Shown: piece after piece, positions 3 through 21,631 of the stretch
How positions within the stretch are numbered: position 1 is the first letter of the stretch
How the letters are laid out: every line of letters begins with the position of its first letter
Assembly: GCA_902593235.1 (NCBI GenBank)
Contig: CACJHS010000003.1
Span: 1 to 62,201, forward strand
Source of the DNA: an uncultured Pelagibacteraceae bacterium
GTDB lineage: Bacteria; Pseudomonadota; Alphaproteobacteria; Pelagibacterales; Pelagibacteraceae
Reading direction: 5' to 3'
Length of the DNA: 62,201 nucleotides
Translations under genes and position numbers: made by a program
The notes under the pieces: generated by a model
The model's input: only the letters and a program-made list of their open reading frames with translations
The model's database searches: none
Told to the model about the DNA's origin: nothing

Positions 3-1337
3 GCGCCTGATGATTTGGCTCCTCAATTTGAGTATATAAGAAAATCAGTATTAGCATTCAATTTACCATCTGTGGATCTTCCTAATTATGAAGCAGATGA
101 TTTAATAGCGACATATGTTGACCAAATCCTTAAAATAGGTGCAAAAGTTACAATTGTCTCATCAGATAAAGATTTAATGCAGCTTTATAAAAAAGGGGTT
201 CGAATTTTTGACCCCATGAAAAACAAATTTATAAATGATGACGATGTCTTAAAAAAATTTGGAGTAGAGGCCTCAAAAGTCATCGATGTGCAATCTTTGG
301 CAGGAGATAGTAGTGATAATGTTCCTGGTGTTCCAGGGATAGGTGTTAAGACAGCTGCAGAGCTAATTAACAAATATGGCACTTTAGAAAATTTACTAAA
401 ATCTGCTCATGAGATTAAACAAAATAAAAGAAGAGAAACATTGATAGAAAACAAGGATAAAGCATTAATAAGTAAAAAACTTGTAACATTAGATACTAAA
501 GATGAACTGATTAAAATAATTGAAAGTACAAATAATGCTAAAGATTTAGAGTTATTTGTAAGAGTTGCTGTTTCAAATGAACATGCAGAAATTGATTTAT
601 CAAAAAAATTTGGTGCTTTAACATCTGAAGCAATAGGTTTATTAAGACTTGTAAAACAACATGCAAAAAAGATTGGTTTAAGTTTTCATGTTGGTTCACA
701 ATGTATGCATCCAATTTCTTATTCAAAAGGAATTAGTGAGATTGGAAATATAATTAAAAAGACAAAAATTATTCCGCATTACATTAATGTAGGTGGAGGT
801 TTCCCTACAATCTATCCTGACTTAATTCCACAATCTTTAGATAGTTATTTTAATGAAATAAATAAGAGTTTAGAAAATTTAAAGCTTGAAAAACTTCCTG
901 AAATTATTTGTGAGCCTGGTAGAGCTATAGTTGCAGAAAGTGGTTCAACAATTGTAAGGGTTAATTTAAGGAAAAAACAAAAGCTTTATATTAATGATGG
1001 TACTTATGGTACTCTTTTTGATGCTGGTACACCAAACATTGTATTCCCATCTAGAATGATTAAAGAAAATTCTAATAAAATAATTTCAAAAAAATTAACT
1101 GCTTTTGATTTCTTTGGACCTACATGTGATAGCATGGATTATATGAAAGGTCCTTTTTTGCTTCCAAATAATATTAAAGAAAATGATTATATTGAACTTG
1201 GTCAACTTGGGGCATACGGATTAACATTTAGAACTCAGTTTAATGGTTATTACTCAAATGAAATTTATGAAGTTGAAGATAACCCAATAATGACAATGTA
1301 TGATAAAGACATTAACAAAGCTAACATGGTAGCTTAA
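3..1337 (+). CDS. Chimeric ORF: DNA polymerase I 5' nuclease part joined to C-terminal part of ornithine decarboxylase (5' partial)
   Basis: The frame is open to the window edge (APDDLAPQFEYIRKSVLAFN precedes and spans the TTG used by the ORF track), so the true start lies outside. Residues 1 to about 158 (track numbering) are PolA 5'-3' exonuclease: the acidic YEADDLIA and SSDKDLMQL segments and the helix-hairpin-helix DNVPGVPGIGVKTAAEL. From about residue 160 the sequence is a group IV PLP decarboxylase (ornithine decarboxylase): FVRVAVSN, HVGSQC, GGGFP, EPGRAI, DGTYGTLFDAG, FGPTCDSMD and a C-terminal GAYGLTFRTQFNGYY. The polymerase and proofreading domains of PolA are absent, and so is the N-terminal barrel strand of the decarboxylase that carries the PLP lysine. 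Neither half should have its full function. The junction lies near nt 486-507. The next gene starts on the stop codon (TAATG). Domain identities are clear; whether the join is real is not. Confidence 0.85.
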   Translation, partial: APDDLAPQFEYIRKSVLAFNLPSVDLPNYEADDLIATYVDQILKIGAKVTIVSSDKDLMQLYKKGVRIFDPMKNKFINDDDVLKKFGVEASKVIDVQSLAGDSSDNVPGVPGIGVKTAAELINKYGTLENLLKSAHEIKQNKRRETLIENKDKALISKKLVTLDTKDELIKIIESTNNAKDLELFVRVAVSNEHAEIDLSKKFGALTSEAIGLLRLVKQHAKKIGLSFHVGSQCMHPISYSKGISEIGNIIKKTKIIPHYINVGGGFPTIYPDLIPQSLDSYFNEINKSLENLKLEKLPEIICEPGRAIVAESGSTIVRVNLRKKQKLYINDGTYGTLFDAGTPNIVFPSRMIKENSNKIISKKLTAFDFFGPTCDSMDYMKGPFLLPNNIKENDYIELGQLGAYGLTFRTQFNGYYSNEIYEVEDNPIMTMYDKDINKANMVA

Positions 1338-2386
1338 TGTCGAGTCAAAAAAATCCAGGTCACAACAGTAAAAGAGATTTCTTAAAAAATCCTGTTGAGC
1401 ATATCGATATAACTTCTTTCGACTCTAGAAAAATTATATCCTCAATGGAAAAAATGTCATTTGTTTCTAGAGAAACAGCAAATGCTGCTAATATTTATAA
1501 CGAGATGCTTAAAGATAAAGATTGTACAATTTTCCTTACTTTAGCAGGCTCTACTTCGGCAGCTGGATGCATGAATATTTATAAAGATTTAGTTAAATAT
1601 AATATGGTAGATGCAATCGTTGCTACAGGTGCCTCAATAGTAGATATGGATTTTTTTGAAGCTCTTGGTTTTAAACATTACCAAGGTTCACAATTTCAAG
1701 ATGATACTGAGCTGAGGAATAACTATATAGATAGAATTTACGATACCTATATAGATGAAGAAGAGCTTCAAATGTGTGATAAAATCATATGTGAAATCGC
1801 AAATAACTTAGAAGCGAGAAGCTATACTTCAAGAGAGTTCATTTATGAAATGGGAAAATATTTAAAGAATAACTCAAAGAAAAAAGACTCTTTGATTGAA
1901 ACTGCTTTTGACAACAATGTTCCTATCTTCTGCCCTGCTTTTACCGACTCAAGTGCAGGATTCGGGTTAGTTATGCATCAAGAACAAAATCCAAAAAAAC
2001 ATATGACAATAGACTCAGTTAGAGAATTTAGAGAACTAACAGAAATTAAAATCAAATCTAAAGGTTCTGGATTATTTATGATTGGTGGTGGTGTGCCTAA
2101 AAACTTTATTCAAGATACTGTAATTTGTGCTGAGCTATTAGGAAAAGATGTAGATATGCATAAATATGCTGTTCAAATTACTGTTGCTGATAGTAGAGAC
2201 GGTGCTTGTAGTAGCTCCACATTAAAAGAAGCAAGTTCATGGGGAAAAGTAGATATTACAAAGGAACAGATGGTGTTTGCAGAAGCAACTAGTGTTTTAC
2301 CATTGATAGCAAGTGATGCTTATCATAAGGGGGAGTGGAAAAATAGAACAAGAAAAAACTTTACAAAAATTTTTGAATCAAATTGA
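1337..2386 (+). CDS. Deoxyhypusine synthase-like polyamine enzyme (probable homospermidine/spermidine synthase)
   Basis: This 349-residue protein belongs to the deoxyhypusine synthase family. Visible motifs are GASIVDMDFFEALGFKHYQG, CPAFTDSSAGFGL, GGGVPKNFIQDT and ITVADSRDGA, and the SSWGKVD segment whose lysine (residue 304) corresponds to the family's catalytic lysine. Bacteria lack eIF5A, and bacterial members are known to make homospermidine or spermidine-type products from putrescine, which I infer here. The context agrees: an ornithine decarboxylase remnant lies upstream, with a TAATG stop/start overlap, and an agmatinase-type gene lies downstream, with a TTGA overlap. The three genes look like one translationally coupled polyamine operon. 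The exact substrate cannot be read from sequence. Confidence 0.88.
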   Translation: MSSQKNPGHNSKRDFLKNPVEHIDITSFDSRKIISSMEKMSFVSRETANAANIYNEMLKDKDCTIFLTLAGSTSAAGCMNIYKDLVKYNMVDAIVATGASIVDMDFFEALGFKHYQGSQFQDDTELRNNYIDRIYDTYIDEEELQMCDKIICEIANNLEARSYTSREFIYEMGKYLKNNSKKKDSLIETAFDNNVPIFCPAFTDSSAGFGLVMHQEQNPKKHMTIDSVREFRELTEIKIKSKGSGLFMIGGGVPKNFIQDTVICAELLGKDVDMHKYAVQITVADSRDGACSSSTLKEASSWGKVDITKEQMVFAEATSVLPLIASDAYHKGEWKNRTRKNFTKIFESN

Positions 2387-19670: not shown

Positions 19671-20021
19671 ATGGACAAAATTTCAGACTTAAAAGAAATT
19701 GTAATCAACACACTAGATCTCAATAAAGCTCAGGACATTGTAACTATTGATCTTAAAGACAAAAGTTCTATGGCTGATTACATGATCATAGCAAGCGGAA
19801 CTTCATCTAGACATATCCAGTCTTTATCGGAACAAGTTTTAGAAAAACTTAAAAATAATGGTGTAAAAGACTCTAAAATTGAAGGCAAAGAAAGTGGAGA
19901 ATGGAAGCTTGTTGATGGGATTGATTTAATTGTTCATATTTTTCACCCAGAGAAAAGAAAATTTTACGAATTAGAGAAAATTTGGTCAGAACTAATTCCA
20001 AAAGAAAAAGTGATGATATGA
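19671..20021 (+). CDS. rsfS: Ribosomal silencing factor RsfS
   Basis: This 116-residue DUF143 protein binds L14 and blocks subunit joining under nutrient limitation. The core motifs are seen: DLKDKSSMADYMIIASGTSSRH, EGKESGEWKLVDG and IVHIFHPEKRKFYELEKIW. Its stop codon overlaps the ATG of the ctpA signal-peptide frame (ATGA). In many alphaproteobacteria rlmH and an EnvC-like gene lie between rsfS and ctpA; both are missing here. Confidence 0.94.
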   Translation: MDKISDLKEIVINTLDLNKAQDIVTIDLKDKSSMADYMIIASGTSSRHIQSLSEQVLEKLKNNGVKDSKIEGKESGEWKLVDGIDLIVHIFHPEKRKFYELEKIWSELIPKEKVMI

Positions 20022-21156
20022 GAAAAATTAAATTTTTATCACTAATTTTTTTTCTTTTTTTTGTTTAAATAAAACAGTTATTTCAGCTGAAATTGATATT
20101 TATAAAAAAATTGATCTTTTCGGTGAAGTTCTAGAAAAAATAAATAAAGAATATGTTGATGAGATCGATCAATCTGAAAGTATGGACTCTGCTATCAATG
20201 GTCTTTTACAATCACTCGATCCATATTCAGCATACATGTCTCCTAAAATTTTTGAGGAAATGCAAACTGATACTAAAGGAGAGTTTGGGGGACTTGGAAT
20301 AGAAGTAAGTATGGAAGCTGGTGTGGTGAAGGTTATTTCTCCTATAGATGGTACTCCAGCATCTAGAGCTGGATTAAAAGCTGGAGACTACATTGTAAAA
20401 ATTGACAATATTCAAGTTCAAGGAAAGTCATTAAGTGAAGCTGTTGATATTATGAGAGGTCCAGTAGGAACTTCCATTGAGCTTATTGTAAGAAGAAGGG
20501 GTGTTAAAAAAGCATTAACATTTAATATCGTAAGAGAAGTTATTCAGGTGCAATCAGTTAAATCTGAAATTATAGATGAAAATATTGGTTACATAAGACT
20601 CACATCATTTAATGACAATAGTAGTGATCAAATTAAAAAACAAATAAATGAGTTAAAAAAAAATAAAAAGTTAAATTCATTTATTCTAGATCTAAGAAAC
20701 AATCCTGGCGGACTTTTATCTCAAGCTATTAAAATCTCTGATTTTTTTCTAGAAAATGGAGAAATAGTTTCAACAAAGAGCAGAAAAAAATCTGAAAATA
20801 GAAAGTGGTTTGCGCGAAAAGGTGATATTACAGATGGAAAGACTTTATTAGTTTTAATTAATTATGGATCAGCGTCAGCATCAGAAATAGTAGCTGGAGC
20901 TTTAAAGGATCATAAGAGAGCTATTATTGTTGGTGAAAATAGCTTTGGAAAAGGCTCAGTTCAATCAATAATTCCTCTTAGAAATCGTGGTGCGATACGT
21001 CTTACTGTATCAAAATACTATCTACCTTCAGGAAAATCTATTTCTGAAGTAGGTGTTAGACCTGATATCGAAGTTAATGAGGAAGGTGATGATTTTAGAA
21101 TTAAAACTGATACTGATAATCAACTGAATTACGCTATTAGATTACTCAACGGATAA
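20018..21156 (+). CDS. ctpA: C-terminal processing peptidase (S41), N-terminus frameshifted at T8 runs
   Basis: The main frame (track start 20182) has SLDPYSAYM, a PDZ domain (about residues 35-110), and the serine-lysine dyad in GSASASEIVAG and SFGKGSVQ (Lys257 in track numbering). The frame remains open upstream to 20032 (ISAEIDIYKKIDLFGEVLEKINKEYVDEID), which is clearly CtpA, but without a usual start codon. An ATG at 20018, overlapping the rsfS stop, encodes MRKIKFLSLIFFLFFV, a signal peptide, in another frame, ending at a TAA at 20066. One extra T in either T8 run (20046-20053 or 20055-20062) joins the two frames into a normal exported protease. The gene is sound apart from this; error, slippage and mutation are all possible. 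Confidence 0.85.
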
Positions 21157-21157
21157 T

Positions 21158-21631
21158 ATGAAAAAAAAATTTAAAGATTTACCACTGAGAAGTGGAGTCG
21201 GAATAGTGTTATTGAATAACCAAAATAAAGTATTCGTGGCAAAAAGAATAGATAATCCTAAAAACTTCTGGCAAATGCCTCAGGGTGGTATTGATGAGGG
21301 AGAAGATAATTTAAAAGCTGCATTTAGAGAACTAGAGGAAGAAACTAGTATCAAAAGCGTAGAACTTATAAAAGAATTAGATGGTACATTAACTTATGAT
21401 TTACCAGATAGATTACTAGGTATTATTTGGAAAGGTAAGTACAAAGGTCAGAAGCAAAAATGGTTTTTAATGCGATTTATTGGAAATGATAATGAAATAA
21501 ATATTAATACATCTAATCCAGAATTTTTAGATTGGAAGTGGATTGACTTAGATTTAATTACTGATGTTGTGGTTGATTTTAAACATCATGTTTACAAAGA
21601 ACTTAAAGAAAAAGTAAAAAAATTAATTTAG
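21158..21631 (+). CDS. rppH: RNA pyrophosphohydrolase (Nudix)
   Basis: This 157-residue protein has the Nudix box GGIDEGEDNLKAAFRELEEETSI at 43-65 and RppH-like LPLRSGVGIVLLNNQNKVFVAKR, FWQMPQGG and GQKQKWFLMRF. RppH removes pyrophosphate from RNA 5' ends to start mRNA decay; alphaproteobacterial homologues also act on dinucleoside polyphosphates. It starts one base after ctpA stops and overlaps the convergent atpC by 9 nt. Confidence 0.92.
   Translation: MKKKFKDLPLRSGVGIVLLNNQNKVFVAKRIDNPKNFWQMPQGGIDEGEDNLKAAFRELEEETSIKSVELIKELDGTLTYDLPDRLLGIIWKGKYKGQKQKWFLMRFIGNDNEININTSNPEFLDWKWIDLDLITDVVVDFKHHVYKELKEKVKKLI

Follow-up and report, generated by a model that had tools for sequence, protein, structure and literature searches.

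A frame break in the signal-peptide codons of a SAR11 ctpA gene as a probable homopolymer artefact of a presumed single-cell genome assembly

In an uncultured SAR11 bacterium, the gene for the exported protease CtpA is split between two reading frames within its signal-peptide codons. The gene lies on a 62,201-nucleotide contig (G000:C3; G+C 30.5%), the whole of which was analysed and is here called the window, from a 1.03-Mb assembly in 52 contigs that is 77% complete. The frame break is certainly present in the sequence as given. Comparison with related genomes indicates that it is most probably the private loss of a single T, arising during amplification, sequencing or assembly of the DNA of a single SAR11 cell, and not a functional recoding site. 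One T would have been dropped from a T9 tract in the ctpA signal-peptide codons in the present assembly only, and the living cell would have carried the in-frame run.

On the + strand of the window the gene order is proB-proA-nadD-rsfS-ctpA-rppH, in which nadD, rsfS, ctpA and rppH were identified by profile matches, and proB and proA are presumed from their translations alone. The ctpA product belongs to the S41 peptidases with a PDZ domain (CtpA/Prc), with matches to PF03572 (E = 3.5e-56), PDZ_6 and a CtpB_N-like domain, and a TIGR00225 score of 354.8 bits against a cut-off of 218.6. Coordinates of the features are collected in Table 1.

Direct reading of the sequence shows the ctpA ATG (20018-20020) overlapping the rsfS stop codon TGA (20019-20021). 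The frame that it opens runs for 16 codons, MRKIKFLSLIFFLFFV, to a TAA at 20066-20068, and passes through a T8 run (20046-20053), a single C (20054) and a second T8 run (20055-20062). The protease frame, at -1 relative to the ATG, opens at 20032 after a TAA at 20029-20031, ends at 21156, and contains no ATG, GTG or TTG before 20182. To continue from the start codon into the protease sequence, either one base must be added or the ribosome must shift by -1. These readings agree with a preliminary description of the window, which had placed an ATG over the rsfS stop at the head of a short frame ending in TAA, had found the remainder of CtpA in the adjoining frame from 20032 without a usual start, and had proposed that one added base restores the full frame. 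Its "perfect" signal peptide holds for the charged and hydrophobic front, which is all that the ATG frame encodes; the peptide is not complete by itself, as its cleavage region, VISA/E, lies in the protease frame. In the present assembly the stop at 20066-20068 thus leaves the export signal out of frame with the S41 enzyme.

Table 1 Features at the ctpA site, at the start of the window and in other genomes. Positions are those of the window unless a locus is named.
Feature	Position	Strand	Basis or content
rsfS, ribosome silencing factor	19671..20021	+	TIGR00090 and PF02410 matches
ctpA start and truncated signal peptide MRKIKFLSLIFFLFFV, TAA end	20018..20068	+	Sequence; homologous ATG in frame in 80/80 relatives
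T8-C-T8; first run one T below the T9 of the nearest relative, holding the probable frame-breaking deletion	20046..20062	+	
Remaining ctpA, S41 C-terminal processing peptidase, -1 frame, 374 aa open	20032..21156	+	PF03572 and TIGR00225 above cut-off
rppH-type RNA pyrophosphohydrolase, next gene, intact	21158..21631	+	NF001938 above cut-off
Chimeric 440-aa ORF: polA 5'-3' exonuclease domain and PLP-dependent Orn/Lys/Arg decarboxylase	15-1337		
ctpA breaks in other genomes	L096 about 1840; L208 about 1507-1601; L211 about 2078-2148	-	A8, A7GGG, A9

The double run is mildly unusual for the composition of the window: T8-C-T8 with at most one mismatch is expected 0.31 times, and at least one occurrence was found in 24 of 100 shuffles. 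Single A or T runs of at least 8 are common in its coding sequences (79, both T8 runs of ctpA included). As a separate observation, these coding runs are strongly A-biased on the sense strand, with 48 A8, 14 A9 and 2 A10 against 14 T8 and 1 T9, perhaps because of Lys codons or because T runs are avoided.

The start of ctpA was compared across two sets of loci. At 80 homologous loci gathered from named species-representative SAR11 genomes, the DNA reads in one frame from the signal-peptide ATG into the protease in every case. A second set of 57 loci from genus genomes, drawn partly from the same genomes or species as the 80, has the full ctpA frame in 55; of the remaining two, one is truncated at the end of its contig and one is broken near residue 268. 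Over both sets the frame is full in 135 of 137 loci. A wider search found a ctpA match at E <= 1e-60 in 334 of 399 genus genomes; the score of such a match would not reveal a signal-peptide break, and among the matches listed (about half) all non-window ctpA genes have an open frame of at least 380 aa, against 374 here. The exact motif of the window occurs in one of the 399 genomes, namely its own, and no frame-broken signal peptide was found in the other genomes inspected.

Over 6,024 aligned bases the identity to the nearest relative (L002) is 96.7%, and the sole gap in this alignment is the ctpA frame break; when the window was compared with three close relatives, no other clear uncompensated indel was seen within a gene. 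The run pattern in L002 is T9-C-T-A-T6, compared with T8-C-T8 in the window. Most simply, one T would have been lost from the first run, and an A-to-T change would have made the second T8. Nine Ts in relatives had been put forward in the preliminary description as the mark of an assembly error, and T9 was indeed found, in frame, in L002, L004 and many others. L003 and others keep the frame with a different run pattern, and the comparison of run lengths among strains that had been proposed alongside yielded in-frame variants ranging from no long run to T13. Several relatives (L024, L086 and L089) lack a long T-tract altogether. As judged from these alignments, the T-tract is no conserved device; its T richness is explained by the Phe and Leu codons in the hydrophobic segment of an AT-rich genome. 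The private A-to-T change in the second run could count against an artefact, as the sign of a genuinely diverging site.

The mature region of ctpA shows no decay. Private codon changes, counted only where L002, L003 and L004 agree, comprise 7 synonymous and 0 nonsynonymous, which points to a break that arose very recently or that the living cell does not carry; a long-standing pseudogene was rejected on the same count. Other readings of the gene were likewise set aside. Initiation at 20182 would cost the protein its signal together with some 35 residues from the conserved N-terminal part, initiation at an ATT at 20032 would give a signal lacking positive charges, and neither start is used by any relative. 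Takeover by a paralog was rejected given a single ctpA match in the genome, of which the assembly covers 77%. Viral contigs, scanned for the ctpA site, gave nothing.

Further defects were found in the same assembly. In 218.5 kb of sampled stretches aligned to one relative, there was a second clean in-gene break, in pcrA/uvrD; several more candidates, which fell at the ends of genes, between genes or in diverged sequence, were left out of this count. The helicase gene is split into two frames by a private extra A (A5 to A6) at G000:C4:19593 (L159 19593). The other 40 genomes with a match all have it unbroken, though in one of them a contig edge cuts the gene. A defect of another kind lies at the start of the window. 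Its first ~480 bases are polA, collinear with positions 123977-124464 of a contig of a close relative (G424:C1), and are followed, across an inverted join, by a pyridoxal-dependent decarboxylase gene, which on that contig reads the other way from 121990. The join falls at about 475-488, where 8 bases, AAAAACTT, are common to both sides. In the close relative some 2.5 kb separates the two genes, which have opposite orientations, and polA is a separate gene in the other genomes compared. The 440-aa ORF that spans the join is a chimera, and its annotation as a fusion protein would be wrong here.

Among 475 MDA chimeras, 85% were inverted joins, mostly with an intervening deletion and short homology (PMC1855051). 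The inverted join, intervening deletion and short homology seen here make an MDA single-cell origin likely. The loci nearest to the window come from uncultured Pelagibacteraceae (SAR11) genomes with names of the single-cell-isolate type, and from these relatives, the fragmentation and the chimera we infer an MDA single-cell genome. Benchmark assemblies from the GORG-Tropics single-cell workflow, the one behind the nearest relatives of the window, average 3.0 indels per 100 kb (PMC11247762; also PMC8443664). One or two indels would therefore be expected in a 62-kb window, and at this rate one dropped T needs no further explanation.

The ctpA break accordingly has the features of a homopolymer error: it is private to one assembly, the gene is undecayed, and other artefacts occur in the same assembly. 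The sequencing-error reading, one of three offered in the preliminary description, is supported by the T9 of relatives, the second private break and the MDA-type chimera. The case, as seen in the consensus sequence, resembles known MDA single-cell assembly errors in combining a sporadic, private homopolymer indel with an inverted short-homology chimera. Private single-base breaks of ctpA, all at homopolymers, were also found in three other genomes of the genus (G001, G210 and G316), at an A8 near residue 268, an A7GGG near residue 270 and an A9 near residue 165-180, amounting to some 1% of those genus assemblies in which ctpA was matched. The differing sites point to sporadic homopolymer indels in ctpA, with no preference for the signal peptide.

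The alternative that survives best, though we consider it unlikely, is a genuine and very recent replication-slippage deletion in the cell or its clone, by which CtpA export would be lost and a deleterious allele would be segregating. Mutation is generally frequent in long T runs, run lengths differ widely among the relatives, the lack of nonsynonymous private changes fits a very recent event, and the pcrA break could likewise be real. This reading needs at least two null mutations in about one-fifth of a streamlined genome, one of them in pcrA/uvrD, and has to coexist with an artefact of another kind, the chimera. The rate of breaks also fits published assembly error (PMC11247762).

A rescue of the frame during expression is very improbable. 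The T8 allele would then be real, and incidental RNA polymerase slippage (an added U) or a -1 ribosomal slip would yield a minority of full-length CtpA. Two candidate heptamers of the form U_UUU_UUU (20047-20053 and 20056-20062) do lie upstream of the stop, and both T8 runs are long enough for slippage by a bacterial RNA polymerase, which takes some 7 T or more; with the E. coli enzyme, ~5-10% of expression was rescued on T7/T8 reporters, and none on runs shorter than 7 T or 8 A (PMC6260861). The slippery homopolymer upstream of a stop recalls the programmed frameshifting or slippage of IS elements and dnaX, but ctpA lacks a conserved out-of-frame arrangement, and the heptamers are accompanied by no stimulatory structure, the RNA downstream folding no better than shuffles (z = +0.38). 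Neither the tract nor the out-of-frame arrangement is conserved in relatives, as would be expected of a slippage site. The A6 run of the pcrA break, moreover, is below the 8-A threshold of the E. coli enzyme (PMC6260861), a genome-wide study detected no transcription error that restored a reading frame (PMC5574713), and the literature searched held no precedent pairing Pelagibacter with transcriptional slippage. In insect endosymbionts, long A runs are the site of slippage that corrects 12-50% of transcripts (PMC5009743). The ctpA case is similar in that an AT-rich gene is broken at a homopolymer and restored by one added base, and differs in that the tract is unconserved, the runs reach only 8, the break occurs in one assembly of several hundred, and the evidence is from DNA.

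Least probable of all is a contingency homopolymer that toggles CtpA export by phase variation: run length does vary among relatives, from none to T13, but the variants keep the frame in 80 of 80 of them, several lack the tract, and ctpA encodes a periplasmic housekeeping protease and is not a typical phase-variable surface gene. Slippage and a contingency-like homopolymer, the other two readings in the preliminary description, both remain without support, as the tract is unconserved and no other signal peptide in the genomes inspected is frame-broken.

There is only a very slight chance that T8-C-T8 is real in a SAR11 lineage and that low-level slippage by RNA polymerase supplies enough full-length, exported CtpA to let the cell tolerate the break. 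If so, frameshift rescue known from endosymbionts would extend to the most abundant free-living bacteria of the ocean. The favoured explanation, an artefactual loss of one T, carries a caution for the SAR11 group: single-base homopolymer breaks in its fragmented assemblies can imitate recoding sites.
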